Positions 18,466-48,529 of a stretch of 64,000 bases of DNA are shown piece after piece. Positions within the stretch are counted from its first letter, which is position 1, and every line of letters begins with the position of its first letter. The position numbers and the translations under genes are program-made. The notes under the pieces were generated by a model, which did no database searches, was not told where the DNA came from, and worked only from the letters and a program-made list of their open reading frames with translations. Origin of the DNA: Sphingobium yanoikuyae (GTDB lineage Bacteria > Pseudomonadota > Alphaproteobacteria > Sphingomonadales > Sphingomonadaceae); assembly GCF_034424525.1 (NCBI RefSeq), contig NZ_CP139980.1, forward strand, positions 172,892 to 236,891. Reading direction: 5' to 3'.

Positions 18466-18500
18466 GATGGGCGGGGCGATCCGCGATCGCCCCGCCCATC
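18466..18500 (+). terminator. Strong hairpin after czcA
   Basis: Perfect 16-bp stem (GATGGGCGGGGCGATC pairing with its complement) with loop CGC. There is no U tract, and the next gene's ribosome-binding site follows within ten bases. It may therefore act as a partial terminator or protect the upstream mRNA end. Confidence 0.6.
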
Positions 18501-18516
18501 TCTGGGAGATGGGGAT

Positions 18517-19840: not shown

Positions 19841-19843
19841 GAA

Positions 19844-31246: not shown

Positions 31247-32119
31247 TTGCACTTGGCTCGTATCGGATATGCCCGCGTCAGCACCACGGACCAGGATCTG
31301 GATATCCAGATTGGCCGCCTCAAGAATGCAGGTTGCGAAATTATCCGTTCCGAGACCGGATCGGGGGCCTCGCGGAGCGGGCGCACGGAACTGGAAACGA
31401 TCATGCAGTTTATGCACACCGGCGACGAGCTGGTCGTGCTGCGGCTCGACCGGCTCGGCCGCTCCACGCGCGATGTCCTGAACCTGGTGCATGAGCTTGA
31501 TGAAAAGGGAGCTTCGCTGCGCATCCTTGAGCCAGAGGTGACGACGGCGGGCGACATGGGGCGAATGGTCATCACCATACTCGGCATGGTCGCCGATATG
31601 GAGCTGAAGTTCATCAAGGATCGTCAGCGCGCCGGGATCGAAGCGGCGCGCGCCGAAGGCGTTTACAAAGGCCGGAAGAAGAACGTCGATGACGATGAAA
31701 TCCGCCGTCGCCTTGCCGCCGGCGCCAGCAAGGCCCGCGTTGCCCGCGACCTGAAGGTCTCACGAATGACCGTCTATCGGGCGCTCGACATTATTCCGTC
31801 AAAGACCAAACTGCCGGAAAAGCCGCCCACTGCCAGCATCGCCCTGCATCTGATTATCGAGAACTTCAACAAGCGTGGAAGAGGTAGAAAACCCGCTCGG
31901 GAGCGGATTGAGGCGATGCTGGAACGCGACTACGCCATGGTAAAAAACGGCAATTGTGATTACAAACTGACCGTCGCCTATGACCCCGATCCGGATGGCA
32001 TTTCCCTTGATGAGGAAATCCAAAGCCTCCTCTCCGAGATGTTCAACATCGCAGAGAGCTACAATTGCTCCATGGAAGCCGATATCTACGAGGTCGGTGG
32101 TCAGCAACGGTCCTGGTAG
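31247..32119 (+). CDS. tnpR: Serine resolvase with C-terminal extension, probably the Tn3 element's TnpR
   Basis: 290 aa. The catalytic domain has IGYARVSTTDQ, LRLDRLGRS and MELKFIKDRQ; the helix-turn-helix is ASKARVARDLKVSRMTVYRAL (about 160-185). A further 100 residues of unknown fold follow, ending in an acidic segment. Resolvases with such tails accompany some Tn3-family transposases. It would have been divergent from tnpA before the mer/IS1182 segment came between. The start is TTG; a TTG two codons later is equally possible. Confidence 0.82.
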   Translation: MHLARIGYARVSTTDQDLDIQIGRLKNAGCEIIRSETGSGASRSGRTELETIMQFMHTGDELVVLRLDRLGRSTRDVLNLVHELDEKGASLRILEPEVTTAGDMGRMVITILGMVADMELKFIKDRQRAGIEAARAEGVYKGRKKNVDDDEIRRRLAAGASKARVARDLKVSRMTVYRALDIIPSKTKLPEKPPTASIALHLIIENFNKRGRGRKPARERIEAMLERDYAMVKNGNCDYKLTVAYDPDPDGISLDEEIQSLLSEMFNIAESYNCSMEADIYEVGGQQRSW

Positions 32120-32159
32120 AATCAATCAAGCGTTCAGTGTTCGTTCTTCAACCTGGCCA

Positions 32160-33560
32160 AAATCGCAGCTTCGGGCCGACTGGGCCAAGTTCCACTGGAA
32201 GCCCCGACTTGGGATTCAGTCTACCATTTGGGACGAAGCGCTGAAGCTCCAGGCGGCGGACAATGACTATCAGCGCCGCGACCTGTTCGAGGCGATCGAC
32301 GCCGGCGATTTCCCGCAATGGGATCTGGGTATCCAATTGTTCGACGAGGCGTTTGCCGAGGCGCAACCCTATGACGTGCTCGACGCGACCAAGCTCATCC
32401 CGGAAGAGGATGTGCCCGTGCGCCTGATCGGCACACTGACGCTCAACCGCAATGTCGACAATTTCTTCGCCGAAACCGAGCAGGTCGCATTCCTGCCCTC
32501 GAATGTTCCGCCAGGCATCGATTTTTCGAATGATCCGCTGCTTCAGGGCCGGCTCTTCTCCTATCTGGATACGCAAAATTCACGTCTCGGCACCACCAAC
32601 TTCCATCAGATCCCGGTAAACGCACCGCGCTGTCCGTTCGGCAATTTCCAGCGGGACGGAAAAATGCAGACGATGGTGCCCAAGGGCCGTGCCAATTATG
32701 AACCCAACAGCCTGGCGGCGCATGGCGAGGAAGGTGGACCGCGCGAAAGCCCGGACGTCGGCTTTGTAACGGCAAACGCCGCCACTGGCCCTGAAGAGAG
32801 CGGCGACAAGCTGCGCGTGCGGGCGGAAACCTTCGCCGATCATTACAGTCAGGCGCGTTTATTCTACCGTTCACAGACGATCAGTGAACAAGCCCATATC
32901 GCCTCGTCCTTCGTGTTCGAACTCTCGAAGGTGGCACAGCTCGATCAGGTGCCCGGCCGGATGGTGGCCAATCTACGCAATGTGGACGAAGACCTGGCGA
33001 GCCGGGTTGCGGACGGCTTAGCGATCGATCTGCCGAAAAAGACGCCCGCCGCCAAGGAGCCGATCGACATGCCGCCTTCGGACGCACTTTCGATCCATAA
33101 GAATATGCTGGCGACGCTTGAGGGGCGCAAAGTCGGCATTCTGATCGCGGACGGCAGCGATGCGGACGAACTGGCAGCAATCGTCACGGCAGTAGAAAAA
33201 GCCAAGGGCAAGGCTGTGATCGTCGCGCCCAAAGTCGGTGGCGCAAAGCTCTCCAACGGCAAGCAGCAGAAGGCCGATGGTCAGCTGGCAGGATCGCCGA
33301 GTCAGATTTTCGATGCCGTGGCGATCATAGTGTCGCAGGAGGGCTGCGCGACGCTGCTGAACGAAGGCGCGGCGGTCGAATTTGTGATGAACGCCTTTGG
33401 CCATCTCAAGGCGATTGGCGCGAATGAGACAGCGCAGCCCTTGCTCGACAAGGCCGGCGTGGTGCCCGACGCGGGCGTCACGGGGGTCGATGCAGCGTTC
33501 GTCAAGGCGGCGGCTCTCCGCTTCTATGACCGCGAACCATCGCTGCGTATGCTGGCTTGA
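32160..33560 (+). pseudogene. katE: Large-subunit catalase KatE, 5'-truncated
   Basis: About 465 codons remain of a catalase that normally has about 700. Similarity starts near KFHWKPRLG and includes the haem-tyrosine motif RLFSYLDTQ, the PVNAPRC segment and the C-terminal flavodoxin-like domain of HPII-type enzymes. The N-terminal arm and the distal His/Asn haem residues are absent. No start codon or ribosome-binding site fits. The break is within about 50 bases of the resolvase stop. The remaining frame is intact, suggesting a recent truncation. Confidence 0.88.
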
Positions 33561-33634
33561 GAGAAGACATGATGAGCGATCAGTTTAACGCCTGGTCGCT
33601 CATGTCTTTTAGCCGGGCTAAATGCAGTTGTCGC

Positions 33635-35131
33635 CTACCTGATATCCTGTTCCACCTGTTGCAGGATCTTGGGCTTTGCCCGGGCCGATTTCAGATTCAG
33701 TGCACGAAATTGTGCCACTAGTCGCGTCGGTTCGATCTCGATGCGGACGTAGCCGCTATGGTTCAGGTCATGAAAGCGGATGTGGGGGTTATTTGCGCGA
33801 ACCTCGCCGAAGCGGCCGGCTGGCGGCGATTGGGCAGCAAGGGCGGAGGTGACGATTTCGGTCGCCACTGGCGGGGTGCCATCCGCCCGATGCAGATCAT
33901 TCAGCCAAAAACTGTGGACGTCGCCGCTTAGAATTAGGGGATTGCGGACATTGGGGCGGGCGAGCTGATCCAGCAGCCGTGAGCGGCCTGCGACATAGCC
34001 GTCCCACTGGTCGCTATAGACAGCGTCACCCCCGCCATCGAGCGCCAGCGGCGCAAAAAACACGCCCTGCGCCAATAAAGTCCAAGGGCGCCGCTCTTGG
34101 GAAAGGCGCTGAGCCAGCCATGCCTCCTGCGCCTGTCCCAGCATGGTCCGATCGGGCGCCAACCGTTCGGCGCAATGATCGAGCCGGACGTTGCGGGCTA
34201 CCGACGGCGCCGCGCATGGCGGGTTGGACCGGAATTGGCGCGTGTCGAGCATGGAAAGCGATGCCAGTTCGCCCCAGTCCACCCCACGATAGAGGCGCGG
34301 GCTGGCCATGGAGCGCCACAGGCTGGGGCGGATCGGCATATGTTCGAAATAGGCCTGATAGGCCGCCGCTCGCCGCGCCGCGAAAATTTCGGGAGGTAGC
34401 CCCTCTCGATTGGCGAGCGCGGCATAATCGTTCAGCACCTCATGATCGTCCCATGTGACGAGCCAGGGCACGCGCCGGTGCGCTTCCTGCAAATCCGGAT
34501 CGGTGCGATAGAGGGCGTAGCGGGCGCGGTACCCATCCAGATCGCGTGGTTCGGGCGCGCCGAAATCGCGGACCTTGGGCTGGTCGGGATAGGATGTTTC
34601 GTAAATATAGTCGCCGACCTGCACGATCAGGTCGGGATCGCCCGCCAGCATGTCGCGATAGGCGCCGAACCATCCCAATTCCCAATGCTGGCAGGATGTG
34701 AGCGCCAGCCGCAACCGGTTGGTGCGGTCCGGCACGGTTGCGGTACGCCCGACCGGGCTGGTCGCGCCAAGCGCATGGAAGCGATAATGATAGGGGCGCC
34801 CCGGTCGTAGTCCGGTCAGTTCGAGATGGATGCTGTGCGCCGCCTCGGGATGCGCGTTCAATGCGCCGGTCCGGACGATGTTGCGAAATCCTTCATCCTC
34901 GGCGACCTCGTAACGGACCGGGATCGATCCGGCCCGAACAGGGTGGGCGTCGGGGCCGACGAGGCGCGTCCACAAAACGAAGCCGTCGCGGGATGGATCG
35001 CCGCTGGCGACGCCGAGCGCAAAGGGGTCGGCCTGCGCAGTGAAGGGTGCGGCGAGCACCCGGAGCGGCGTGGCGCCAAGCGCGACCATGGCGCCCAGCA
35101 CGGCGCGGCGATGCCAGGGAGAGGCTTGCAT
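33635..35131 (-). CDS. phoD: PhoD-family alkaline phosphatase 1
   Basis: 498 aa exported phosphatase. The N-terminus is Tat-like (HRRAVLGAMVALGA) and is followed by a fibronectin-like domain and a metallophosphatase core. Metal ligands appear in VQVGDYIYET, VTWDDHEVLNDYA and LSGDVHSFWL. PhoD enzymes use calcium/iron and cleave phosphomono- and diesters. A Pho box 24 bases upstream of the start suggests control by PhoB under phosphate limitation. It is divergent from an ECF sigma gene. Confidence 0.9.
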   Translation of the reverse strand: MQASPWHRRAVLGAMVALGATPLRVLAAPFTAQADPFALGVASGDPSRDGFVLWTRLVGPDAHPVRAGSIPVRYEVAEDEGFRNIVRTGALNAHPEAAHSIHLELTGLRPGRPYHYRFHALGATSPVGRTATVPDRTNRLRLALTSCQHWELGWFGAYRDMLAGDPDLIVQVGDYIYETSYPDQPKVRDFGAPEPRDLDGYRARYALYRTDPDLQEAHRRVPWLVTWDDHEVLNDYAALANREGLPPEIFAARRAAAYQAYFEHMPIRPSLWRSMASPRLYRGVDWGELASLSMLDTRQFRSNPPCAAPSVARNVRLDHCAERLAPDRTMLGQAQEAWLAQRLSQERRPWTLLAQGVFFAPLALDGGGDAVYSDQWDGYVAGRSRLLDQLARPNVRNPLILSGDVHSFWLNDLHRADGTPPVATEIVTSALAAQSPPAGRFGEVRANNPHIRFHDLNHSGYVRIEIEPTRLVAQFRALNLKSARAKPKILQQVEQDIR

Positions 35132-35154
35132 CGGGCGGCCCTATCGGCGGCGTT

Positions 35155-35171
35155 TGACAGTAATGCGACAG
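35155..35171 (-). promoter_or_regulatory. Pho box upstream of phoD 1
   Basis: On the minus strand the sequence is CTGTCGCATTACTGTCA: two CTGTC half-sites 11 bases apart, as in PhoB sites (consensus CTGTCAT-N4-CTGTCAT). It lies between the divergent phosphatase and sigma-factor genes and could serve both. Confidence 0.7.
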
Positions 35172-35255
35172 CGACCCCCGACGAATGTGGATATTGTCCC
35201 GATATTGTCATGCCGACTGACTAACCGCCCCGCTCATCTGAAGGGGGAAGCCGCC

Positions 35256-35831
35256 GTGACCTGGTTGAGGGATGTAGACCGCTGGTTCATTGATGAGATA
35301 TTGCCGCACCGGGTCGCTTTCCGGCGGCAGGCGGCTCGGCTGGTCCCCACGGCCGAGGCCGAGGATCTGGTGCAGGAGGCCTATGCCCGCGCGATCAATG
35401 CGTCGCATCATCGCGAGATCGTCAATCCCCGCAGCTTCGTCCTCACCATCATCCGCAATCTGGCGCATGAACGTCATCGTCGCGCCACCGTCGTGCGGTT
35501 CGAGCATCTGGCCGATATGGAAGCGATGGAAATTGCCGATAGCGCGCCGGATCAATTTGCAGTGCTATCGGGCAATATGGAGCTGGCACGGCTGATCGCG
35601 CTGATGGAGCAATTGCCGCCACAGGCGCGCGCGGTGGTGAAGATGCGGCGGATCGAAGGATTATTGCCGGGCGATATAGCGGTGCGGATGGGTTTGTCGG
35701 TCTCTACTGTAGAGAAGCATCTTGCCAAAGGGCTGGCCATTCTTGCCTATGCGATGCAGGAAGCGCCACCGCAGGAAGAAAGGGCCCCGTTTTCGCGCTT
35801 ATGGCAACGCCACCGACACCAGAGAAAATGA
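35256..35831 (+). CDS. ECF sigma factor, FecI-like
   Basis: 191 aa. Region 2 has AEDLVQEAYARAI and FVLTIIRNLAHERHR; region 4 has LPPQARAVVKMRRIEGLLPGD and VSTVEKHLAKGL. A FecR-like gene and a TonB receptor with a signalling domain follow, so this is a cell-surface signalling sigma that switches on the receptor when its ligand binds. The GTG start is chosen because GGGGGAAG precedes it and region 2 begins soon after. Confidence 0.88.
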   Translation: MTWLRDVDRWFIDEILPHRVAFRRQAARLVPTAEAEDLVQEAYARAINASHHREIVNPRSFVLTIIRNLAHERHRRATVVRFEHLADMEAMEIADSAPDQFAVLSGNMELARLIALMEQLPPQARAVVKMRRIEGLLPGDIAVRMGLSVSTVEKHLAKGLAILAYAMQEAPPQEERAPFSRLWQRHRHQRK

Positions 35832-36727
35832 TGGAGGAAGCCGCCGGCTGGCTGGCGGCGCTCGATGCAGGCTCGGTCACGCCGCAGGCTTTCGAACAAT
35901 GGCGTGCGGCCGATCCCCGCCATGCCATCGCCTTTGCCCAGGTGGCTCATGCCTTCGAGCAGGTGGAGCGTCTACGCGCGGTCGAGGACCGTCCGGCCGA
36001 ACCGGCGCCCACCGCCATCAACCGCCGTGGGATGTTGCGTGCCGGCGTCTTGGCCGGTGGTGCGTCGGTCGCCGGCGCGCTGCTGGCGGTACGCGCCACT
36101 GCGCGCGAACATGCCAAAACGGCGATAGGTGAACGGCGCGCGCTGGTGCTGGACGATGGCACCCGGATCGAACTTAATACAGGCACGCGGATCAGTTGGC
36201 GGATCGACAAGGGGGAAAGCCGCATCTGGTTGGAGCGTGGCGAGATCGGCCTTACGGTTCCGGCTTCGCTGCGCGGCAAGCTGACATTGGAGGCAGGAAG
36301 CGCACGATTCACACTCGGCACCGGCAGCTTCAATGCGCGACAGCAACCTGAATCCTTCGACTTTCTCGTGCTGAATGGCATGGCCGATAGCGTACGGGGC
36401 GATGGGCTTACAGCAGGGGCGATGGCGCGCGTGATCGGCCAGAACGTGGCTATCGGACCGGCCGACCCGGTAACGCTGGACCGGGCGCGCAGCTGGAAAG
36501 ATGGTCAACTGGTGTTCGAAGGCGAGAGCCTCGACTTCGTCGTGGCCGAATTTAATCGCTATCTCGACCCCAGGATCGTCATCGCCGATCCGGCGCTGTC
36601 GCGCATTCGGCTGGGGGGGCGTTTTACGACCACCAACCCCAATGATCTGCTGACCGCATTGCATGCGTCGTTCGGCATCCGATCGCAGCGCAGCGAAAAT
36701 GGAGCCATTACCCTCACGGCCGGCTGA
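35828..36727 (+). CDS. FecR-like transmembrane anti-sigma regulator
   Basis: 299 aa. A cytoplasmic DUF4880-type N-terminus (AAGWLAALDAGSVTPQAFEQW) is followed by one membrane helix (about 72-92), the FecR domain (RRALVLDDGTRIELNTGT) and a C-terminal domain that contacts the receptor. Met 35828 overlaps the sigma stop as ATGA and is preferred; Met 35801 gives nine more residues. It should hold the sigma factor inactive until the receptor signals. Confidence 0.87.
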   Translation: MMEEAAGWLAALDAGSVTPQAFEQWRAADPRHAIAFAQVAHAFEQVERLRAVEDRPAEPAPTAINRRGMLRAGVLAGGASVAGALLAVRATAREHAKTAIGERRALVLDDGTRIELNTGTRISWRIDKGESRIWLERGEIGLTVPASLRGKLTLEAGSARFTLGTGSFNARQQPESFDFLVLNGMADSVRGDGLTAGAMARVIGQNVAIGPADPVTLDRARSWKDGQLVFEGESLDFVVAEFNRYLDPRIVIADPALSRIRLGGRFTTTNPNDLLTALHASFGIRSQRSENGAITLTAG

Positions 36728-36809
36728 TAATTTTTTTGCAGCTGCGATAGAGGTCGTGCCGCGCCCACCCATCCCATCCTCCGAGAGACGCTTCCATCGG
36801 AGGGCAATA

Positions 36810-39293
36810 ATGAGTTTTCATGTCGTCGCACTACCCTTGATCCTCGCCGCGGCGCCCGCCAGTGCCGCGAGCGATCGCGCTATCGCCTTCAACATCCCGG
36901 CGCAGAATATGGCGACGTCGCTGAACGAGTTCGGTCGGCAGGCCGGCGTGCAGATGGTCTTCCCCTATGACGCCATCGCCGGTCGCCGCTCGATCGCGCT
37001 CAAGGGGCGCTTTTCCCGTGCCGAGGCGCTGCGCCGCCTGATCGCCGGACGAGGCGTGGCCATTTCCTACGAGGGCGCGGCGATGATCTCGCTCGCCGTC
37101 GCCAAGGCGCCGACCGAATTGTCGGCTGCCGAAGCGGGGGCGGGCGTTGCGGGTGGCGGTGACATCATCGTCACCGCGCAAAAGCGGGTCGAAGACCTGT
37201 CGAAAGTACCGCAGGCGATCACCGTCGTTTCGGGCGTGGAAGCGGCAGAACGCAAGATTACCGATTTCGCCAGTCTGGTCGATGAAGTACCGGGCCTGTC
37301 GATCAACTACAGCACGGGCGGCGAAAGCTATGGCCTGCTGACCATCCGCGGGATCGGCGGCGCCGACGACTACAAGCCCAATGGCAGCCCGTCGGTCGCC
37401 CTTCATGTGGACGGCGTCTATCAAAGCTCCAACGCCTATCTCGGCATGCCTCTGTTCGATCTGGAGCGGATCGAGGTGCTGCGTGGGCCGCAGGGCACTC
37501 TCTATGGCCGCAACACCACGGCCGGCGTCGTCAACGCGATCACGCGCGGCGGCCGCGACACGTTCGACGGCTATGCCGATGTGCGTTATGGCAGCTATGA
37601 CAGCCTGCGCGCGGAAGCGGCGATCGGCGGTCCGGTCAGCGACAATATGCGCGTGCGACTGGCAGTGATGACCGATCAGGGCGGCGGCTTCATGAACGGG
37701 AAGGGCGCGGGCGATCTGGCGGGCGCGCAACTGAGCGTCGGCGGCGTGGTCCAGAGACAGGTGCCTGCGATCAACGATCCGGGCGCACGCAAGGGCTTTG
37801 GCGACAAGGATCTGTTTGCCGCGCGCGGTACGGTGGATATCGATTTCGGTCCAGATACCAGTCTGACGCTGAAGGCCTTTGCCAGTCGCGACCGTGGCGA
37901 TGCCCGTCAATATGACCGCATCAGCGCAGCGGAGGACAGCAGTGTTCTCAATGCCGGCGAAGATAAAGACCCCTACAGCTTCTATTCGCGGGCCTATTTT
38001 CAGCAACGGATCGACATCAAAGGCGCGTCCGCACAATTTTCGCACCTGCTGAACGATGCCACCCGCTTCGACATGGTCGCCGGCTGGCAGTCGAGCCAGC
38101 GCAATATCGGCGGCAATGGCGATGGCACGCCCTATCCCCAATATGAATATCTGTTCGATGAAGATCTGAGCCAGGCATCGCTCGAAATGCGCCTGCGCAA
38201 CGAGCAGCAGGGGCGTTTCAACTGGTTGATCGGCGGCTTCTACATGAGCGACAAGATCGACTATCAGAGCCAATGGACCAGCTGGGCCGCGCGGACCATA
38301 TATCATAATGTCCATAATCAGCGCCGCCGTAGCGCCGCGCTGTTCGGTCAGGCTGATTATGAGTTGTTGCCCAAGATCAAGCTGACGCTGGGCCTGCGCT
38401 ATACCAAGGACGATGTGGATTCGCAGGGCCGCAACATCGACGATAACCCTTGGGGCATATCCAATTACGCCACATTTTTCGCGACGACGCCCAATTTTCA
38501 GTGGGACAAGCAGTTCAAGGATGACGACCTGTCCGGCCGTGCTGCCGCGCAGTGGTTCATCACCGACGATTTGAATGTCTTCGCGTCGGTCGCGCGCGGC
38601 TATCGTTCGGGCGGCTTTGATGGCACGTCGATCATGACGCTGGCCGAGACGGAGCCGTTCCAGTCCGAGACGGTCTGGGCTTATGAAGCGGGCGTGCGTT
38701 ATTATAAAGGGCCGATCCGTCTGTCGCTTGACGCCTTCGCCAATGATTTCGACAATCTTCAGGCGACGACGCGCCTCGACAATGACACCAACGGCCGCAC
38801 TAATGTCGGTAAGGCCAAGACCCGCGGCTTCGAAGCCGCACTGGACGTCAACCTGCTGAACAGCGGCGGGCACAAACTCGATTTCGACGCATCGGGCACC
38901 TATCTCTATTCGAAGATCACCGAGTTTAATTCCAACCGCATCGCCGATGTGACCGCGACTGTCGGCGATCCGCTGCCCGGTGCGCCGAAATGGACCGGTC
39001 GGGTCGGCCTCGTCCACAGCTACAGATTCGGTGATGGCTGGGTGCTAAAGAGCCGCGCCAACATCTTCCATCATGGCAAGGAATCGAACCGCCTGAACGC
39101 GGTCGTCGGCAACACCTCGCCGGCTTACACGCTGCTCAATGCCCGGATCGAGCTGGAATCGCCGCATGGCTGGTCGATCTATGCCATGGGCCGAAACATC
39201 ACGGACGAAGTCTATTATCCCGAAATGAACGGCGCGTCGCGTATGGTCGGTGCGCCCGCCACCTATGCGATGGGCGTTCGCATGAGCTTCTAA
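36810..39293 (+). CDS. TonB-dependent receptor with STN signalling domain
   Basis: 827 aa outer-membrane receptor. A signal peptide (1-20) is followed by a secretin/TonB short N-terminal domain (FNIPAQNMATSLNEFGRQAG), a plug (about 130-240, IIVTAQKR and RIEVLRGPQGTLYGRN) and a 22-strand barrel ending in MSF. The STN domain fits the FecI/FecR pair just upstream. GGAGGG precedes the ATG. Substrate is not iron by default: the genes around it encode phosphoesterases, so an organic phosphate or other carbon source is plausible. Confidence 0.88.
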   Translation: MSFHVVALPLILAAAPASAASDRAIAFNIPAQNMATSLNEFGRQAGVQMVFPYDAIAGRRSIALKGRFSRAEALRRLIAGRGVAISYEGAAMISLAVAKAPTELSAAEAGAGVAGGGDIIVTAQKRVEDLSKVPQAITVVSGVEAAERKITDFASLVDEVPGLSINYSTGGESYGLLTIRGIGGADDYKPNGSPSVALHVDGVYQSSNAYLGMPLFDLERIEVLRGPQGTLYGRNTTAGVVNAITRGGRDTFDGYADVRYGSYDSLRAEAAIGGPVSDNMRVRLAVMTDQGGGFMNGKGAGDLAGAQLSVGGVVQRQVPAINDPGARKGFGDKDLFAARGTVDIDFGPDTSLTLKAFASRDRGDARQYDRISAAEDSSVLNAGEDKDPYSFYSRAYFQQRIDIKGASAQFSHLLNDATRFDMVAGWQSSQRNIGGNGDGTPYPQYEYLFDEDLSQASLEMRLRNEQQGRFNWLIGGFYMSDKIDYQSQWTSWAARTIYHNVHNQRRRSAALFGQADYELLPKIKLTLGLRYTKDDVDSQGRNIDDNPWGISNYATFFATTPNFQWDKQFKDDDLSGRAAAQWFITDDLNVFASVARGYRSGGFDGTSIMTLAETEPFQSETVWAYEAGVRYYKGPIRLSLDAFANDFDNLQATTRLDNDTNGRTNVGKAKTRGFEAALDVNLLNSGGHKLDFDASGTYLYSKITEFNSNRIADVTATVGDPLPGAPKWTGRVGLVHSYRFGDGWVLKSRANIFHHGKESNRLNAVVGNTSPAYTLLNARIELESPHGWSIYAMGRNITDEVYYPEMNGASRMVGAPATYAMGVRMSF

Positions 39294-39300
39294 AAACCGG

Positions 39301-39388
39301 CCGAAGGTGGCTCCGCTTATGCGGGGCCTCCAGCCTTCGGGTCGCCCGGTGAGGCGCCATCTGCCAATGCCTTGGCAGGTGGCGCCTT
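39301..39388 (+). terminator. Double hairpin after the signalling receptor gene
   Basis: The first hairpin pairs CCGAAGG (39301-39307) with CCTTCGG (39334-39340). The second pairs AGGCGCCATCTGCCAA (39352-39367) with 39372-39388, one G-T pair, loop TGCC, followed by TTGTCATT. It should end the sigma-fecR-receptor transcript. Confidence 0.7.
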
Positions 39389-40020
39389 GTCATTATGGCG
39401 CATTTGTCCTGACGGGTAGAAGAGATCGGTCGATATCGGCAGCCAAACGGGCCGGAGGTAGCGCTAGGTGACGAGGCGGCTTCATTGCCGACGCCTATCC
39501 ATCACCGTGGCAGCTTCAGATGGCATGGATCACCGCAGGCTGAAAGCGACGAGGATCGTCAGCTCGACGACATCAGGCTCTCGGCGGGAATTGCCGGCAG
39601 GGGCTGGGCACGTATGAGCATATCGAGTGCGGCCTGATCCAGGTCGAAAGATCACGATTCCCCGACGATAGCAGAGGATGGCACCATGCGGACGCGGTTC
39701 ACGCCGAAGCATATATGGGCGGTGCCCTGCTGACGAATTGCACGGGCGCGGGCCGGGTTCCAGATGCACTAGGATCAGGCTTTCCCAATCAGGCCTGACG
39801 TGACTGGAAAGCCGATCGACGTTGGGAGCAACTGCGCGCGCCGGCTCGGGTGGCGCAACCAACGGCTGCAATTCGACCACAAGCGGCGCGAAGATCCGAA
39901 ACTGCGATCGGGCTTGCAGATGGTCAAGAGAAGTGGACTTGCTGTGGCTGGCCAGTCCAGATGGCGATCAAATGACCGGTAGAGGTGAATTTGGAATAGG
40001 CAGTTTTTATTCTCTCTATC
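39389..40020. other. Non-coding stretch, 630 bases
   Basis: Short frames on both strands look like chance openings in GC-rich DNA; codon use and composition are not coding-like and nothing was recognised. It separates two convergent transcription units. Confidence 0.5.
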
Positions 40021-41139
40021 CTAGGAAATCGCACGCCGTCCCAAAGCCGGATCGTCTGTGAAGATCGCATCGACACCCGTTGCAAGATAGCGCTGCATCT
40101 CTGCAATGCTGCCTTCTTCGTTGCGCGCGGAAACGCCTTTGTCGCTGCGAAAATCGGCGGCCAGGAACTGATTTTCCGGGCGGAAGGTCCAGATGCTGAC
40201 GAGAAGGCCCGCCGCATGTGCGGCATCGACGAGCCCCGTGGGTTTTGTCAGGCGCTGATCCTCGTCCACAGGAATGATCATCCGGACATGGGGCGCAAGA
40301 TAATCTGCATAGCTGGCGATTTCGGAAAGACCTGCGGGCGTCAGCATATCGCGATAGAAGCGCTTGTTGCCCGCCGCCTGCACATCGGCCGGCATCTGGG
40401 CCGGGTCGCCGATCAACTGGGCCAGCTGGATGTTGGGATAGGCGCCGATCCTGCCGCGCAACGCGCGTAGATTAGCGACCTCGAACGACTGGATGGCGAA
40501 CGGCGCGCGTTGCAGATAGGCGCTCTTGCCGATGATATCGATCAGCCGCTGCTCCTGTTGCAGGCCGATGCCTGCGAAATAGGTGGAATGCTTGATCTCC
40601 GGGATCAGGCCGATGGTCCGGCCGCGCGCGGCGGATTCGGCCGCCACGAAATCGGCGATTTCCTCCATCGACACGATCTGGAATGCGCCGTCATAGGATT
40701 GGCTTTCGGGCCGTATGGCGCCCAGCCGCTCTTTCGCGCGTAACGTCTTGAGTTCCGCGAAGGTGAAATCCTCCGTGAACCAACCTTCCTGTCGCTCGCC
40801 GTCGATCGTTTTGACCGTCTTGCGCGCGGCAAAATCGGCCCGGGCGGCAACGTCGCTGGTTTCCGCGATATTATTCTCGTGCCGCGCGACCAGCACGCCG
40901 TCCTTCGTAGCGACCAGGTCAGGCTCGACATAGTCGGCCCCGTCTTGGATCGCCTTGGCATAGGCGGCAAGCGTATGTTCTGGGCGCAGCGCCGATGCGC
41001 CGCGATGGGCGATGAGCAGCGGCGGACCCTTGCGACGGGCAGGGGCGGCGATCGCTGCCCCCACATCCGTCGCAAATGCGGCGGTCAGGCCGGCACCCGC
41101 CTGAAGCAGCGAACGGCGGGATACCGACCTGTCCTGCAT
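40021..41139 (-). CDS. glpQ: Glycerophosphodiester phosphodiesterase, Tat-exported
   Basis: 372 aa periplasmic GDPD. The twin-arginine signal (SRRSLLQAGAGL) runs to about residue 35. Active-site motifs are IAHRGASALRPEHTL and VEPDLVATKDGVLVARHE, with later glutamate in LIPEIKHS, the standard triad of the TIM-barrel family. It would release glycerol-3-phosphate from phospholipid head groups. The ATG overlaps the stop of the TonB receptor (TGATG), so the two form a transport-and-hydrolysis pair. Confidence 0.9.
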   Translation of the reverse strand: MQDRSVSRRSLLQAGAGLTAAFATDVGAAIAAPARRKGPPLLIAHRGASALRPEHTLAAYAKAIQDGADYVEPDLVATKDGVLVARHENNIAETSDVAARADFAARKTVKTIDGERQEGWFTEDFTFAELKTLRAKERLGAIRPESQSYDGAFQIVSMEEIADFVAAESAARGRTIGLIPEIKHSTYFAGIGLQQEQRLIDIIGKSAYLQRAPFAIQSFEVANLRALRGRIGAYPNIQLAQLIGDPAQMPADVQAAGNKRFYRDMLTPAGLSEIASYADYLAPHVRMIIPVDEDQRLTKPTGLVDAAHAAGLLVSIWTFRPENQFLAADFRSDKGVSARNEEGSIAEMQRYLATGVDAIFTDDPALGRRAIS

Positions 41140-43595
41140 CAGTAGTTCACCGACAATGTGGCGAACCACTGGCGCGGCGGGATTGGGTAGACATTGTAAT
41201 TGTTGGTGTTCGCACTCGCCTGCACCGTCGATGCACCCGTCGTGTCGAACAGGTTGGTGACGTTCAGGCTGATCTCCGCCTTTTGCAGGCCGACCATGCT
41301 GGCGGGCAGGCGATAAGCGATCCGGGCGCTGGCCTGGAACACCGACTTGACCGATGCATCGTTGGTGAAGGTGGTGACACGGCGGCCGACATAGTCGCCG
41401 ATCATCTGGGCATCGAAATCGCCGAGCGTCAGCGTCGCAACCGTCTTGTTCATCCACTTCGGGCTGACAGGGATCAGCTTGCCGCCGGTGGGCACGACGC
41501 CGCCCACGGTCGCGATGCCGCCGATCCGCGTGCCAGTCGCGGCGCCAGTGATAGTGCTATAGTCGCTGTCGTAGATGGAGCGGTTGTAGGACACGGCGTT
41601 GTAGAGCGAGAAGACCTGCCCGAAGCGCAGCGTCAGCGCCGCGTCGATACCGTCCGTCTTCACGCCGCCGACGTTGAACACGGCGGGTGTGCCGCCGCTG
41701 ATGCCACTGCCGCCGATGCCGCCGATCGCGCCGGGAGGCGTGATGCCAAGCAGGCGATCGCTGAAATCGACATGATAATAGTTCACCTGCGCTTCGATCC
41801 CGGTCAGGAACGAACTGTCGATGGTCCGGCGGCTGCGTAGGCCGATTTCATAGACCCAGGAGGTTTCGGGGCGGCCATTGAACTTCAGATTGTCGAATGC
41901 CGCCTGGCTGCCGCTGCTCCACGGCGTGACGCCGCCGCCGCCATAAGGCTGGAAGTGGCGCAGGTTCTTCTGCACGTTGACATAGACCTGCTCGCTGTCG
42001 GTGAAGTCCCACTTCGCGCCGATCGCGGGCAGGAACCAGCGCTTGGTGTTGATCTCGCCTTCGGGCAGGGCGCTTGCCGAACCAGGCAGCGATCCGATGA
42101 TCGGCTGGACCGGGAAGGTGCCGCTGGCAAATTGCAGGCTGGACTTGAAACCGCCCTGGACCAGCAGGCTGGGCGTGACCTGCCAGCTGTCCTGCACATG
42201 AAGTTGCAGAACATTGGTGCGCATCTCGCTGGCATATTGGGTGAACAGCGGATCATGCGGCGGCAGCGAATAGGGGTTGTAGTCCTGCGGCCGGGTCACA
42301 TTGAGCGCATACCAGTTCCGATAGGCGGCCGAGCTGTTATATTCGTACCACGCACCAAGCTGAATCTGATGGTTGCCCAACGTCGCGTCGATCGAGGACA
42401 GGATGCCGCCGCGATCGATGCGATATTCGGTGGTACGGATCGCATAGCCCGAATTGCCGGTGGCCGTCTTCAGATTCTGGCCGGGGAAATAGAGCGAGAA
42501 CAGGTTGGGCAGGCCCGCGACCGTGATCGGTCCGGCGACGATGCCCGCGCCGTCATTATTATGATAATATACCTGGTTCGACCAGTCGACTTGGTCGGAC
42601 AGATGGGCCTGATATTTGATGTAGCCCAGATAATCGGTCCGGATCGCGGCGCTGTAATAGTTGCGATAATTCTGCGCCTCGGCGGCCGGCACATTGCCGC
42701 TGGCGTTCAGATAAGCGACCGCGCCGGCGAAATCGGGGTAGAAGAAGGGGCGGGTATAGGGCTGATAGGCCTGCGCCGCATTGGTAGGGTTCTTGAAGAC
42801 GGTGGTCGCGTCCTCATTGGGTTCCTGCTTGTCGGAATAGCTGAAATAGGCGGTCAGCTTGCCATTGCTGTCGTCATGGACGAATTTGGCGTTGGCGGCC
42901 CAGCCCTTCTGCTTGCCGCGGAAATCCCAGGCGCGCGCACGATGGCGCAGGACCGAGACATAGCCGCTATTGCCGTCGCCAAACTCGCCGCTGTCGAGGC
43001 GAACGAATGTGCGGGCCGTCCCGTAGCTGCCGAAAGTGTGGTTCAACTGTGCGCCCATCTGCTGGCGCGGATCGCTGGAGAAATTCTCGATCCCGCCGCC
43101 CAGGTTGCTGGTCGACGCGATGCCCAGTTCCGCGGTGCCGGTGGCGACAACGACGCTGCCGACATTTTCGGAGATGATAGCGCGCTGCGGAGAGAGGCCG
43201 TTGAAATTGCCGTAGCTCTGATCGCCCAGCGGCACGCCGTCCAGGGTATGGCCCAACTGCTGAGCGCTGAAGCCATGGATGAAGAGCGAGGCGTTCTGCT
43301 CGTTGTTGCCCCACGGATCGGCAGTCACATACATGACACCCGGCAGGGTCTGGATCGCCTTGAACGGCGCAACGCCCGGCAGGATCTTCTGGATTTCGGT
43401 TGTGGTAATGGCGGTCGCAGAGCGTGTAGCCTTAACACCGGTCACGACGATGGACGTTGCCTCGCCATCGACCTGCGCCGCTTGGTCTGCTGCGGGCGTG
43501 GGCGTCTGCGAAAAAGCGGGCGCGCTTACTACCAGAGCGAGCAGGCCGGCACTGCCTAGCAGGCAGGCGCGCGAACGCGTGTGCAAAATATTCAT
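41139..43595 (-). CDS. TonB-dependent receptor paired with the phosphodiesterase
   Basis: 818 aa. A signal peptide (about 1-29, ending AFSQ) is followed by a TonB box-like segment (TSIVVTGVKATR), a plug (about 60-170) and a barrel ending SVNY. No STN domain. The start at 43595 is chosen because it begins the signal peptide. Translational coupling to the GDPD gene suggests that it imports glycerophosphodiesters or related organophosphates; that is inference from context. Confidence 0.85.
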   Translation of the reverse strand: MNILHTRSRACLLGSAGLLALVVSAPAFSQTPTPAADQAAQVDGEATSIVVTGVKATRSATAITTTEIQKILPGVAPFKAIQTLPGVMYVTADPWGNNEQNASLFIHGFSAQQLGHTLDGVPLGDQSYGNFNGLSPQRAIISENVGSVVVATGTAELGIASTSNLGGGIENFSSDPRQQMGAQLNHTFGSYGTARTFVRLDSGEFGDGNSGYVSVLRHRARAWDFRGKQKGWAANAKFVHDDSNGKLTAYFSYSDKQEPNEDATTVFKNPTNAAQAYQPYTRPFFYPDFAGAVAYLNASGNVPAAEAQNYRNYYSAAIRTDYLGYIKYQAHLSDQVDWSNQVYYHNNDGAGIVAGPITVAGLPNLFSLYFPGQNLKTATGNSGYAIRTTEYRIDRGGILSSIDATLGNHQIQLGAWYEYNSSAAYRNWYALNVTRPQDYNPYSLPPHDPLFTQYASEMRTNVLQLHVQDSWQVTPSLLVQGGFKSSLQFASGTFPVQPIIGSLPGSASALPEGEINTKRWFLPAIGAKWDFTDSEQVYVNVQKNLRHFQPYGGGGVTPWSSGSQAAFDNLKFNGRPETSWVYEIGLRSRRTIDSSFLTGIEAQVNYYHVDFSDRLLGITPPGAIGGIGGSGISGGTPAVFNVGGVKTDGIDAALTLRFGQVFSLYNAVSYNRSIYDSDYSTITGAATGTRIGGIATVGGVVPTGGKLIPVSPKWMNKTVATLTLGDFDAQMIGDYVGRRVTTFTNDASVKSVFQASARIAYRLPASMVGLQKAEISLNVTNLFDTTGASTVQASANTNNYNVYPIPPRQWFATLSVNY

Positions 43596-44204
43596 GACCC
43601 AATATCCCCAAAGCAGCGCGCAATTTCGCACTTGCAGCATCGCGTTAAATGGAGCGAGTTGCGATTTCCGGTCCGTTTCGGGTCGATTTGATGACATTTG
43701 GGCGGCGGACATGTTGCATTGCGTCCTGACGCTTATGATGCGGTCAAGGTGCGGTGTAGGTCCGAATTTCGGCGAGAGATATCAGGCGTGGCTGTGTATT
43801 GGTCCGTCTGCGCTCAGTAAGTAGCCCAAGCTTTTCGGTAAGGGGAAAGTTCGCAGGCGAGCATCGGGCATTGTGCAGCAAATGACGATAGTGGGTTGGG
43901 CTCAGAGACTATTTTCTCCCGAGCCGATAGTTGTTGTGCCCGGTTGCTATGCCGTGAGTCAGTTTTACGGATAGAATCTCTCGTACAAAAAAGTCCGCGT
44001 CGTAATTTGTAACTCAATCATCATCAGATCCTGCAAGGCGGTCGTTCCATGTCAGCGACAAGCCGTTCATGAAAGGAGCAAGAAAAGCGCCTTTGAGCGC
44101 CAGCGACCTCGCGGTCTTTTCCTCGTCGATGTGGATGTACCAAGGCAATCGAGACTCCTTGGTCCCGATACTGCTGCGCCGGGAACTGGTGCTCATCCTG
44201 TTGC
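43596..44204. other. Upstream region and decayed DNA, about 600 bases
   Basis: Promoter region of the receptor, then sequence with poor coding character. A 60-codon frame on the minus strand (44014-44196) was not recognised. A Pho box with the correct 11-base spacing was not found here. Confidence 0.4.
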
Positions 44205-44637
44205 TCTATGCGGGCGCTCGGCGCCGCCGACGCGGCAGAAGGGGCGGTGACGCTCTTCTTCATAGAGGAGGCACTGGGGATTCACGGGTGGACCGGGGCG
44301 CTGCTGCTGGCCCATCTGCTCATCCGCAGTTTCGCATGGGGTGCGGACTATATAGCTGCTGCGGGCGATGGTGTCGGATCTGGTGCGATCGGGCGGCAAT
44401 GGCTTTGCTGCCACGCACTATGCGCCGTTCAATGTCGCGAACAAGCTCGCCGCCGCGCTGGGCGTTTTCGGGGCGCTCACGGCGCTCGCCTTTATCGGCT
44501 TCCTGCCGGGTGCCGCGCATGGGCTAGGCGAAACCACCTTGCGGGCGATCTACGCGCTGCCCTCATGCCTGGCTGGCCTCATCGGCCTGCTGGCACTGCG
44601 CCGGATCGCTCCGACGCAGTGCCGTTCGGTCAGCTGA
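44205..44637 (+). pseudogene. Frameshifted MFS (GPH-like sugar) transporter remnant
   Basis: Two overlapping frames carry consecutive pieces of one membrane transporter: LFFIEEALGIHGWTGALLLA (frame of 44208) and MVSDLVRSGGNGFAATHYAP, then NVANKLAAALG (frame of 44368). The second piece resembles the C-terminal half of glycoside-pentoside-hexuronide carriers. The N-terminal half is missing or unrecognisable. Its 3' end overlaps the convergent phoD 2 gene by 8 bases. Confidence 0.6.
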
Positions 44638-46330
44638 TCTCCCAGCCGCTCAACCCATCTTCGGCGATCCGTGCGCTGGCATGGCGCGCGATGTCGAGCT
44701 TTCCGATCGCCTGGCGCGGCGTTAGGACGCGGACGAAGTCGGCCTCCACCCGGTCGCGTGTCAGCGATACCGTTACGAAACCAACGGCATTGGTGTCGCA
44801 CCAGCGTATATCGCGATTGTCGTGGACAAAGGCGTCGCCGACCGGCCCCGACGGCAGGAGCAGTTCCCCGATCGAAGGACCGGTCAGCGTGGAGGCGGAA
44901 AGCTCGAGACCAATCCGGCGGTCCCCGCGATGGGGTTCGTTGATCCAGGCCATGTGACTGTCGCCCGACAGCACGAGCAGGTTCGCGCCGCTTTTCTCGA
45001 ACTGGTCGTACAGCTTGTCCCGCTCGCCGGCATAGCCGTCCCAGGAATCGACATTGAGAAGCGGCAGGCCATAGCGCGTCAGGGCGTACATCGGCGCCAG
45101 CGCTACCTTGCCATCGGGAAACTTCGTCAGATCGGGATAGACGTAGCTGGACAGGATGGTCGCGCTGCCGAACAGGAACCACGGGCGGCGAGCATCCTTA
45201 TGGGCCTTCAGTTCGTCCGCCAGCCATGCGCATTGTTCCGCGCCGATCATTTCGCGCGCGGGATCGGCAAGTTTCTCGCGGAAGGCTGCGACATCGGGTT
45301 CGCGCGTGACGCCTTGCGGCAGGGCCTTGAGGTCGAGTGTCTTGAGTTCCGCCGGGTCGGATATCACCCGCTCCCCACTGCCGCGCCGGTCGACAACATG
45401 CCAGTCGAGATCCTTGGCCAGCGACAATTGCTGCTGGCGGGCCTTGAGCCGGGTTTCGGGCAGGGCCAGCGTCGCGAGATCGCCGAACGCGAAGCTGCGG
45501 GTGATGCCATAGGGATCGGAAGTGACAGGATCGCGGATCGGCATCCATTCCAGATAGGCATGAACCGCCGCAGCCTTGCGCTCCTCCCAGTCGCCGTTGG
45601 CCGCCGGATCGTGATGCTGGGCACCATGCATCCAGTCGTCGTTCGCGATTTCATGGTCGTCCCACATGCAAATCCACGACGCGCGGGCATGGGCGTCGCG
45701 CAGGGCCGGATCACGACGCCACTGTGCATAGCGTGCGCGATAGTCGGCGAGCGTGACCGTGTCGTGCGTTGGCTCGATCGCCCGAACATCCATGAGTGCG
45801 GGCATCGAGTTGGCGCCATATTCGTAAATATAGTCGCCCACGAAGAGGATGAGGTCCACCGCTTCCCGATCGGCAATGGCCCGGTAGGCGTGAAATTCGC
45901 CGAACATATACATGGCGCAGCAGGCGAGCACGATATCGAGACGATCGATGCGTCCCGTTGGCAGGGTTTTTGCCCGCCCGATCGCCGATACCGTGTCCAT
46001 GGCACGGAAGCGGTAGAAATATTCGCGGCCCGCCTTCAGGCCGGAGGCGATCACCTTGACCGTATGGTCCCGCGCCGCCGATGTGCTGAACGATCCGCGC
46101 GCAGCGATGCGCGTGAACAGTTCATCCTCGGCCATTTCCCATGTGCCGCTGACCGGCCCATGGGCAGGATCGGTCACGCGGGTCCACAGCAGGACGCTGT
46201 CGGCATGCGGATCGCCGCTCGCCACGCCATGCGCGAAGACCATGTTCGTTTTTGCCCCGGCGGGACCGGCGGCGAGCAAAAGCCCGCCCGCCGCCGATCC
46301 CGCAAGAACGCCGCGCCGCGTCAGCGCCAT
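44630..46330 (-). CDS. phoD: PhoD-family alkaline phosphatase 2
   Basis: 566 aa, longer than phoD 1 and only distantly similar. The Tat-type signal is LTRRGVLAGSAAGG. Metal-site motifs are LFVGDYIYEYGAN, CMWDDHEIANDDWMHG and LVLSGDSHMAWIN. An insert between the motifs explains the extra length. Its ATG overlaps the stop of the upstream receptor remnant, the same arrangement as the receptor/GDPD pair. Expected role: release of phosphate from esters in the periplasm or outside the cell. Confidence 0.88.
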   Translation of the reverse strand: MALTRRGVLAGSAAGGLLLAAGPAGAKTNMVFAHGVASGDPHADSVLLWTRVTDPAHGPVSGTWEMAEDELFTRIAARGSFSTSAARDHTVKVIASGLKAGREYFYRFRAMDTVSAIGRAKTLPTGRIDRLDIVLACCAMYMFGEFHAYRAIADREAVDLILFVGDYIYEYGANSMPALMDVRAIEPTHDTVTLADYRARYAQWRRDPALRDAHARASWICMWDDHEIANDDWMHGAQHHDPAANGDWEERKAAAVHAYLEWMPIRDPVTSDPYGITRSFAFGDLATLALPETRLKARQQQLSLAKDLDWHVVDRRGSGERVISDPAELKTLDLKALPQGVTREPDVAAFREKLADPAREMIGAEQCAWLADELKAHKDARRPWFLFGSATILSSYVYPDLTKFPDGKVALAPMYALTRYGLPLLNVDSWDGYAGERDKLYDQFEKSGANLLVLSGDSHMAWINEPHRGDRRIGLELSASTLTGPSIGELLLPSGPVGDAFVHDNRDIRWCDTNAVGFVTVSLTRDRVEADFVRVLTPRQAIGKLDIARHASARIAEDGLSGWEIS

Positions 46331-47486
46331 CAGAAACGCGCCCCGAGCGAAACGCCCCAGGTGCGCGGCGTGCCGCTGAATGCCTGCGTCGCCGATCCGC
46401 CGGTCGTGTAATCGACATCGGCGATGTTGCGCACGAAGCCGGCCACGGTCCAGCGCTGGTCGATCTTGAGATCGATGCGCGCATTGACGAGCGCGAAGTC
46501 CCCGACCGGCGCCGTATTGTCGAGATCGCCATAATAGGCATCGACGTAGCGGGCATCGACCTGAGGCGTCAGCGTCATGCGATCGTTCAGCGCGAACTCG
46601 TAGCGGATCGAGCCGTTCAGCGTCATGTTCGGCGCGAACGGCAAGTCGTTGCCCAGGCGCGCCTTTTCGGCAGCGGTGATCGCCTCGATCGCGGTGACCT
46701 TCGTGTCGAGCAGCGCGACGCCGAAATTGATGGTCATCGGGCGCACCGGGCGGATCGTGAAGCTGGCCTCGCCGCCATAGCTGCGCGCCTTGCCCACATT
46801 GGTGCGTACGCTGGTGGTGGCGCCATCATAGGTGCGGAAGGAACCGGCCTGAATGTTCGAGAAATCATAATAGAAGCCCGCAACTTCGAACTGCACAGGG
46901 CCGCGCGCAGGCATGAACTTCACCCCGCCTTCATAGGCCCATACGCTTTCCGACTTGAATGCATCGGCTTCGGGGGTCGACCAGATCGTGCTGCCGTCGA
47001 AACCGCCGGCACGGAAGCCGCGTCCGACCGAGCCATAGACCCGTGCATCCTCGCTCAGTTCATACGTGACCGTGGCGCGACCCGAAGGGCTCGTCTCACT
47101 GAGCTTGTTGTCGAATTCGGCGGGCAGGGCGAACACCAGCGATCCGATCGACACGCCATAGGGGTTGAGATCATGCGTGTAGCCGCTGAAGCGGTTCTTT
47201 TCGTTGCTGATGCGCACGCCCAGATCGGCACGAAGGCGCGGCGCGACCTTGAAATCGACGTCTGCGAAGGCCGCGAGGCTTTCGCGCCGCTGCAGATAGT
47301 TCGCTTCGAACACGGTACGGAAGGTGTCGGCGCCGTCCAGCGTGCTGAACAGGCTGATCTTGTCCTTGAACCAGGCACCGCCGACCGTCCAGTTGATGTT
47401 GCCCTTGTCGCGATTCTGCAGCCGTGCCTCGATTGTCAACGGCGGAGCAAAAGTCGGCCATTCGGCGGCGTAAAACCAGGCCATCG
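46330..47486 (-). pseudogene. TonB-dependent receptor, barrel only, cut by an IS21 end
   Basis: About 380 codons of a receptor barrel ending GVSLGARF remain; signal peptide and plug are missing. The frame enters the IS21-type end at 47487, which interrupted the gene. The downstream phoD 2 may have lost its natural promoter as a result. Strand motifs SVGRGFRAGGFDGS and SVWAYEGGVKF are typical of the family. Confidence 0.85.
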
Positions 47487-47896
47487 TGTTACATGCCGGG
47501 GGGAGTGGCGTGAGGGCGTAGCCCGAGGGCCACTCCCCCCGGCATTGGTGTAATTTTCAGGGTCTGGTTTTGGCCTTGCGGGCCCGGCTGTGCGCGAGGC
47601 GATAGCTTTCGCCGTTCATCTCGAGGATGCTGACGTGATGGGTCAGGCGATCGAGGAGCGCGCCTGTGAGACGCTCAGATCCGAAGGTTTCGGTCCATTC
47701 GTCGAAGGGCAGGTTGCTGGTGATGAAGGTGGAGCCGCGTTCGTAACGCTGGGAGATCAGCTCGAACAACAGTTCGGCGCCGGTCTTGGAGAGCGGCACA
47801 AAGCCCAGTTCGTCGATGATGAGCAGCTTGTATCCGGCCATCTGCTTCTGGAAGCGCAGAAGACGGCGCTCGTCGCGGGCCTCCATCATTTCGCTG
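47487..47896. mobile_element. IS21-family remnant
   Basis: Starts with TGTTACATGCCGGGG, followed by a hairpin (GGGGGGAGTGGC with its complement near 47525-47545), then the 3' part of istB. The other end and istA are missing; the sequence passes straight into a receptor gene fragment near 47890. Confidence 0.75.
47557..47889 (-). pseudogene. istB: istB helper ATPase, 3' part
   Basis: 110 codons. IIDELGFVPLSKTGAELLFEL is Walker B and what follows in IstB, then TSNLPFDEW and LTGALLDRLTHH. Walker A and about 135 N-terminal residues are lost at the junction. It cannot support transposition. Confidence 0.85.
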
Positions 47897-48529
47897 CAGT
47901 CGGGGGATCAATTCTCATCGCTCGATGTCACCAGCGCCGCGCTGGAGCCGGAGAGGTTCGACAATTACGAGCTTGGCCTCAAATGGGATATCCGCCCGAC
48001 GCTGAACCTGACCGCCGCCATCTACCAGCTTGACCGCACCAACACCCGCGCGGCCGACCCCAATGACCCCGCACGGACGGTGCTCACGGGCGCGCAGCGC
48101 AGCAAAGGGCTCGAACTCGGCCTTAGCGGCGCGATCACACCCCAGTGGCAGATCAGCGCGGGCTATGCGCTGCAGGACGCGACAATTCGCAAAACGACGA
48201 GTGCCGCCCCGGCCGGGCGCGAGGTTCCGCTGGTTCCAAAACAACAGGCTTCGCTCTGGACGCGTTACGACCTCACCCCACGCTTGGGGGCCGGCGCCGG
48301 TGTCTACCACCAGTCGAAAAGCTTCACGTCCATCAGCAACACCGCCATCCTGCCCGCCTTCACCCGCGTCGATGCCGCCGCATTCTTCAAGCTCACCCCC
48401 CAGATCGAGGCGCAAATCAACGTCGAGAATCTGCTTAACAGCGATTATTTCTCGTCCGCCTACAACGACAACAACATCATGCCCGGCGCGCCGACGACGG
48501 TGCGCGCAACGGTTAGAATGAGATTATAA
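47890..48529 (+). pseudogene. C-terminal fragment of a Fiu-like siderophore receptor
   Basis: About 210 codons from QSGDQFSSLDV to the final RMRL. The sequence is a diverged paralogue of the last part of the receptor at 57094-59238, roughly 85 percent identical in the stretches compared by eye. The join with the IS21 remnant falls at CTGCAGTCGG. It has no start, signal or plug and cannot make a functional receptor. Confidence 0.88.

Follow-up and report, generated by a model that had tools for sequence, protein, structure and literature searches.

Signalling systems of the FecIRA type are usually under iron (Fur) control. In the parts of the literature accessible to us, phosphate limitation appears as a signal for several related systems: PhoB drives vreAIR, an operon with an extracytoplasmic function (ECF) sigma factor, in Pseudomonas aeruginosa (PMC4971064), the PusCD transporters of Flavobacterium are induced by phosphate depletion and located with phosphoesterases (PMC8115612), and PhoD and GlpQ of Bacillus subtilis are implicated in the degradation of wall teichoic acid under phosphate starvation, with endo and exo action on glycerol-phosphate polymers (PMC7086022). 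Sphingomonad genomes may hold more than 100 TonB-dependent receptors (TBDRs), 153 in one strain, according to the accessible part of PMC7142613. Here we analyzed the terminal 64 kb of a 236,891-bp replicon of Sphingobium yanoikuyae (contig NZ_CP139980.1, positions 172,892 to 236,891; this whole stretch is called the window hereafter), where a gene for a PhoD-family phosphoesterase (PhoD1) is divergent from genes for an ECF sigma factor, a FecR-type anti-sigma regulator and a TBDR (TBDR1), with a PhoB-type box facing each side. This core probably encodes a Pho-controlled, TonB-dependent module for scavenging organic phosphate that includes a ligand-sensing sigma loop.

Core genes and the boxes between them

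PhoD1 (33635..35131, minus strand) matched Pfam PhoD (E = 4.8e-98) together with PhoD_N, has a twin-arginine (Tat)-type N-terminus as read by eye, and aligned with 2yeq (E = 4e-97), a solved alkaline phosphatase D that we take to be the B. subtilis enzyme. On the plus strand, the ECF sigma factor (35256..35831, the GTG start at 35256 being chosen by conservation) carries Sigma70 regions 2 and 4 and matched FecI-like NCBIfam models below their cut-offs; FecR (35801..36727, Pfam FecR and FecR_C) and TBDR1 (36810..39293, Pfam Plug and a full barrel) are adjacent to it in FecIR-type order. An earlier note on this DNA, made from the sequence alone, had given TBDR1 an STN domain. The Pfam STN score (17.5 bits) is below the cut-off of 28.4, yet an N-terminal signalling (STN-like) domain is likely, because in phmmer searches the ferripyoverdine receptor 2iah aligned over residues 25-284, and 2a02, an isolated domain of a ferric-pseudobactin receptor and presumably its signalling domain, aligned over residues 27-98 (E = 6.1e-7). 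A structure prediction of TBDR1 was set aside as evidence of fold, with a predicted local distance difference test score (pLDDT) of 27.7. The gap between FecR and TBDR1 (36728..36809, plus strand) holds an AAT-T-tract and a GGTNGTGC-like motif, kept in four species, which we regard as a candidate ECF-dependent promoter; of the 13 other FecR loci in this genome, some likewise have A/T tracts 3' of FecR.

The four core genes stand together in all eight sequences compared, i.e., the window, S. limneticum, Sphingobium sp. AP50, S. scionense, S. lactosutens, a plasmid of Sphingobium sp. V4, plasmid pHR1a of Novosphingobium resinovorum and a Sphingopyxis metagenome-assembled genome (MAG). Identities of the seven relatives to the window were 70-97% for PhoD1, 73-98% for ECF, 59-99% for FecR and 77-99% for TBDR1, and the arrangement described in the earlier note, a receptor with its own ECF/FecR set divergent from PhoD, is thus not only present here but conserved in seven further sequences. 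An eighth relative, Novosphingobium sp. 18050 (L094), whose contig ends near the start of TBDR1, was omitted from the box alignment. Five public plasmid records hold TBDR1 with the core, and on all five the core genes are full or near-full length. The PhoD gene of the core on pHR1a is adjoined by one annotated as S1/P1 nuclease (L099, 3205-4014), whose product is a possible further phosphate-releasing partner.

Box sequences were scored with a half-site matrix derived from 19 distinct three-unit arrays at pstS (28 of 30 genomes, the host genome included). The single PhoB site that the earlier note had pointed out is present on the minus strand and faces PhoD1 (box 1, CTGTCGC-N4-CTGTCAA, 35154..35171, score 10.78); a second, stronger box that the note had missed lies on the plus strand and faces ECF-FecR (box 2, TTGTCCC-N4-TTGTCAT, 35194..35211, score 13.52). 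When all window positions were scored on both strands, box 2 ranked second and box 1 third, after a site inside the coding sequence of a neighbouring receptor (TBDR2, described below). Within the 64 kb, the pattern TGTC-N7-TGTC is confined to the PhoD1-ECF gap, where it occurs twice, once per strand. After 3000 single-base shuffles of this gap, the score of box 2 was reached on its strand in 0.13% and that of box 1 in 0.63%, and only 0.03% of the shuffles had at least 10.78 on both strands. The plain consensus with up to three mismatches would be expected 2.82 times per window and was found three times, so that it is weak evidence for a Pho box by itself.

Among the eight orthologous intergenic regions, the strict TGTC-N7-TGTC core is kept in all eight for box 2 and in seven for box 1. 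Each box is followed by a -10-like element with an assumed promoter role: on the PhoD1 side CGATAG (35141..35146, minus strand), 7 nt after box 1 and near the ATG, and on the ECF side CTAACC (35221..35226, plus strand), 9 nt after box 2. The former reads CGATAG in six orthologues and CGATAA and CCATAG in the other two, with the same position and an identical distance to the ATG in all eight; the latter reads CTAAC in seven and GTACC in the Sphingopyxis MAG. Both boxes keep their orientation, their 11-bp repeat spacing and their distance to the -10-like element, and the spacing between the boxes varies, from which we conclude that they are separate elements. Conservation and the pstS-derived matrix together support the proposed Pho box as well as the second one. 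In the stretch 35129-35171 (minus strand) the -10-like element is so near the ATG that the PhoD1 transcript would be nearly leaderless.

The window locus has the highest PhoB score among the 14 FecR loci of the host genome. A three-unit PhoB-like array (11.23 and 11.20) lies upstream at FecR locus L230 (G000:C1:3231169, positions 615-643), and the chromosomal FecR locus L220 scores 12.13. A scan of the genome with YTGTCRYNNNNYTGTCAY returned 74 places vs. 35 for a reversed control, many of them tandem TGTCGC arrays. Such arrays (e.g., L073, L077-L079, L088) have 11-bp spacing, often two to three units, and stand near varied genes of the chromosome.

Linkage of PhoD and receptor genes across Sphingomonadales

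A search with PF09423 found 67 PhoD places in 38 of 61 genomes, 50 of which were fetched; the other 17 comprise the window's own and its orthologues (8) and weak matches or a fragment (9). At 14 of the 50 loci a TBDR gene lies directly upstream on the same strand, at three it is divergent, and at 33 none was detected adjacent with a home-made profile (E < 1e-10) that could miss a divergent receptor; L173, counted here as not linked, has a TBDR gene 1.3 kb downstream. The 17 linked loci span four families of the order. Under a stricter automatic rule, linkage to a TBDR was seen for 13 of 50 PhoD open reading frames vs. 4 of 641 others of at least 200 aa, the latter counted in all frames, which inflates this denominator. 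The gene pairing that the earlier note proposed to look for elsewhere is thus recurrent for TBDR-PhoD, and TBDR2 with its glycerophosphodiester phosphodiesterase (GDPD) partner was also found in another genome.

PhoB-type sites follow this linkage. Matrix scores of at least 10 were found upstream of 13/17 linked and 4/33 unlinked PhoD loci and of 13/297 other open reading frames, and scores of at least 12 upstream of 8/17, 1/33 and 6/297, respectively. When PhoD proteins were clustered at 65% identity, six of seven linked clusters had PhoB-type sites vs. 2 of 15 unlinked ones (p = 0.002); for a linked cluster to count, most of its members had to pass, whereas for an unlinked one a single passing member sufficed, and the cluster of PhoD2, a second PhoD of the window, was counted through S. 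limneticum. The tie to phosphate limitation suggested before thus gains comparative support, from the sites at TBDR-linked PhoD loci as well as from the boxes on the FecIR-type set.

Other combinations of the same parts were also seen. TBDR, PhoD and GDPD genes stand in a row in another genome (L143), and one of the six GDPD places fetched (39 found) has an adjacent TBDR gene. At the three loci whose PhoD proteins form the sister clade of PhoD1 in the PhoD tree, the receptor gene is divergent as well and no ECF-FecR genes intervene; this receptor belongs to the class of TBDR2 (31-32% identity), and blastp gave no match between it and TBDR1. Receptors of two classes and phosphoesterases of two families thus recombine with each other, as would sooner be expected of a common pathway than of chance neighbours.

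Neighbouring pairs, block edges and replicon

Three receptor-phosphoesterase sets lie within 33.6-47.5 kb of the window, and the PhoD, ECF, FecR, TBDR1, GDPD, TBDR2 and PhoD2 genes called in the earlier note were all recovered. GDPD (40021..41139, minus strand, Pfam GDPD) has a twin-arginine-type N-terminus (by eye) and matched the glycerophosphoryl diester phosphodiesterase 1ydy (E = 1.4e-27), which we take to be E. coli GlpQ. It overlaps TBDR2 (41139..43595, minus strand, Pfam Plug only) via TGATG, and the pair occurs without PhoD in another genome with identities of 84% (TBDR2) and 76% (GDPD). In a relative, Sphingobium G002 (L212, G002:C48), a four-unit array of 11-bp repeats lies upstream of TBDR2-GDPD, its best pair scoring 10.37; the window's copy has no such array.

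The third set was described before as a receptor-PhoD pair. PhoD2 (44630..46330, minus strand, Pfam PhoD, E = 2.5e-81) and its TGATG junction are real, but the receptor gene, TBDR3 (46330..47484, minus strand), is a remnant of 384 aa, a barrel-only fragment (Pfam barrel positions 120-436) from which the signal peptide and plug of a functional TBDR are absent. Its first ~16 residues are read from a remnant of the insertion sequence ISSsp5 (IS21 family; 47434..47896, minus strand, with the 3' part of istB), and homology stops at 47433. This remnant matched 11 listed plasmid records at 99.4-100%, nine of which are annotated there as ISSsp5 istB. In S. limneticum, which is collinear with the window from 32187 to 47433 (97.2% identity), TBDR3 is whole in an open frame of 765 codons with the same TGATG junction to PhoD2, and a site scoring 12.17 with the PhoB matrix lies ahead of it (all three receptor genes are open in S. 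limneticum DSM 25076); by this comparison, the ISSsp5 event removed the region before TBDR3 that holds the PhoB-type site in S. limneticum, and the TBDR3-PhoD2 pair is degraded in the window. Beyond the remnant, TBDR4 (47909-48526, plus strand) is a C-terminal piece of a receptor of another kind. It shares 89% identity with the C-terminal end of the complete receptor encoded at a distance of 9 kb (57094-59238), near ECF, metal-resistance and multicopper-oxidase genes; TBDR4 is considered unrelated to phosphorus because its receptor family is found beside copper genes.

The TGATG overlap, previously read as the mark of a shared cassette, does exist at both receptor-hydrolase junctions, but it also joins an unrelated gene pair at 18463 beside an efflux gene of the resistance-nodulation-division (RND) type, and we rejected it as a signature. 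The idea of a mobile cassette likewise stood in part, since the genes are plasmid-borne, and failed in part: no transposase is among the genes identified inside the block, which has no evident mobility genes of its own, and its right ends differ from plasmid to plasmid, so that it was not classified as a discrete mobile element or transposon. The window belongs to contig C2, which is probably a plasmid (the companion contig C1 measures 5.16 Mb). At the left edge, a catalase gene (31980..33560, plus strand, Pfam catalase from position 183 only) has its N-terminus truncated at a resolvase junction that the window shares with three plasmids (WTD-1, A3 and SJTF8); its open frame is longer in S. 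limneticum, whose collinearity with the window begins at window position 32187. The match to SJTF8 stops inside GDPD and that to A3 inside TBDR2, the four core genes being whole on both, and WTD-1 has an annotated IS5 transposase between TBDR2 and PhoD2. The extra pairs are thus absent or cut at differing points on different plasmids, and we regard TBDR2-GDPD and TBDR3-PhoD2 as additions that are not well retained, the latter being disrupted by a mobile element. Farther away in the window (12759-24379) there is a block with an RND-type efflux system and a P-type ATPase, with Tn3-family and other transposases nearby.

Mechanism, rival explanations and known systems

Gene content, box conservation, the pstS-like sequence of the boxes and the recurrent PhoD-TBDR linkage in the order are what we observed; PhoB binding, ligand sensing, uptake and the nature of the substrate are what we infer. 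Under phosphate limitation, PhoB would activate both divergent promoters through the separate boxes. PhoD1 would be exported to the periplasm, given its Tat-type N-terminus read by eye, and the other PhoB-driven promoter would supply small amounts of ECF, FecR and TBDR1. TBDR1 would import a phosphate ester whose size or scarcity puts it out of reach of porins; once the receptor has bound ligand, its signalling domain would lift the inhibition of ECF by FecR, and the freed ECF would raise TBDR1 expression from the candidate promoter in the FecR-TBDR1 gap. PhoD1 would then free phosphate from the imported ester, to be taken up by Pst. GDPD-TBDR2 and PhoD2-TBDR3 may be neighbouring units of the same general kind that accreted in one Sphingobium lineage.

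A more specific version, which we hold to be rather doubtful, makes the locus an AND gate for a particular phosphorus polymer: PhoB would license it solely in phosphate famine, ligand-bound TBDR1 would then set the sigma loop high, and TBDR1 would import glycerol-phosphate oligomers (teichoic-acid-like or deacylated phospholipid polymers) for periplasmic breakdown by PhoD as the endo-acting and GDPD as the exo-acting enzyme. The polymer hypothesis was raised because PhoD is implicated together with GlpQ in the breakdown of B. subtilis wall teichoic acid, as told in the accessible part of PMC7086022. If true, it would amount to a Gram-negative counterpart of polysaccharide-utilisation loci for phosphodiester polymers, recurrent in Sphingomonadales.

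Several observations weigh against the scavenging module proposed above, and some of them are shared with other explanations. Among solved structures, those of the pesticin and ferripyoverdine receptors, i.e., siderophore receptors, come closest to TBDR1, a TonB-siderophor NCBIfam model matched it below the cut-off, and sets of FecIR and TBDR are classically iron systems; the locus could therefore be an ordinary iron/siderophore cell-surface signalling system, with PhoD1 as a chance neighbour or as an Fe-dependent enzyme that links it to iron. In the stretches fetched for TBDR1-like receptors of two other genomes (G027 and G004, 41-44% identity), neither PhoD nor GDPD was matched, so that membership in this receptor class alone does not imply phosphorus. 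The iron explanation nevertheless has to face the co-occurrence of the four genes in 8/8 sequences, the PhoB-type boxes on both sides and the recurrence of PhoD-TBDR linkage with different receptors, and we consider it unlikely. The boxes themselves also leave room for doubt: repeats at ~11-bp spacing are not unique to PhoB among OmpR-family regulators, the distal half CTGTCGC of box 1 also matches the tandem TGTCGC arrays that are frequent on the chromosome and not evidently Pho sites, the Sphingopyxis MAG has a degenerate box 1 (2.66), scores above 10 also occur at two other FecR loci of the host, and no convincing PhoB box was found before TBDR2 in the window, where the best score immediately upstream was 7.26. 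The two boxes could instead be bound by another regulator of the OmpR family that uses 11-bp repeats, e.g., a ChvI-like one that senses envelope stress, which would place the module under envelope-stress control; against this stands that a matrix built solely from pstS promoters picks both boxes and that such sites are common at linked PhoD loci and mostly missing at unlinked ones, and we give this possibility little credence.

The comparative counts have weak points of their own. Many linked loci are orthologues, which inflates the per-locus numbers, and the opposite strand of the linked regions reached 10 in 6/17 and 12 in 1/17 cases. One of the seven linked clusters fell short of the threshold (L140, 9.54), two loci in a cluster that passed have low scores (L151 and L157), and the site of L143 is at the very edge of the scanned stretch. 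Finally, the truncated catalase and TBDR3, together with the cuts through TBDR2 or GDPD on two other plasmids, could indicate that the whole cluster is a decaying hitchhiker of plasmid rearrangement without current function. The four core genes are, however, open in the window and full or near-full length on all five plasmid records and in other relatives, the one frame break seen in the core being that of TBDR1 in the S. lactosutens draft, where it lies in two frames; this reading of the cluster appears very improbable to us.

Compared with FecIRA-type signalling as known from textbooks, the proposed scavenging module has the same gene order, in which ECF and FecR are followed by a TBDR that likely bears a signalling domain. 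It differs in its linked phosphoesterase and in having PhoB-type boxes where iron (Fur) control would be usual, although no search aimed at Fur sites was made. The same two enzyme families, known here by sequence, act in B. subtilis, in a Gram-positive cell on its own wall and without a receptor, as far as the accessible part of PMC7086022 describes it. The organophosphate hydrolase of Sphingobium fuliginis and Sphingopyxis wildii (PMC7142613) is likewise a Tat-exported phosphoesterase of sphingomonads that is functionally tied to TonB, but it is a phosphotriesterase rather than PhoD or GDPD, and the accessible part of that paper describes no comparable gene pairing. Pus loci share TonB-dependent transporters beside phosphomono- and diesterases; they are of the Bacteroidetes SusCD type with a SusD lipoprotein, whereas the module here has a single-component alphaproteobacterial TBDR, and the FecIR/PhoB box arrangement is not described for them in the accessible part of PMC8115612. 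No SusD family member was found among the genes scanned with Pfam, which did not include all short open reading frames in gaps. PUMA3/VreAIR is alike in that an ECF/anti-sigma set depends on PhoB and a pho box, joining phosphate limitation to sensing; VreA has no beta-barrel and is not believed to act as a transporter, whereas TBDR1 has a full barrel, and the core differs further in its divergently paired PhoD gene and in having its own box on each side (compared with the accessible part of PMC4971064).

PhoB control of an ECF loop is thus already known from VreAIR, as are TonB transporters induced by low phosphate and located beside phosphoesterases from Pus loci. A complete TBDR combined with a divergent PhoD and one box per side was not found in the open-access literature searched, nor was the pairing of PhoD and TBDR in sphingomonads, in searches mostly by title and the start of the abstract. 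To our knowledge, most sphingomonad TonB receptors have no known ligand, and receptors tied to PhoD or GDPD and to PhoB-type boxes make one group of them testable. They also suggest that phosphorus, besides iron and carbon, drives receptor diversity, and the locus adds, alongside the Pseudomonas example, a case of a FecIR-type sensing loop that is apparently under phosphate control.

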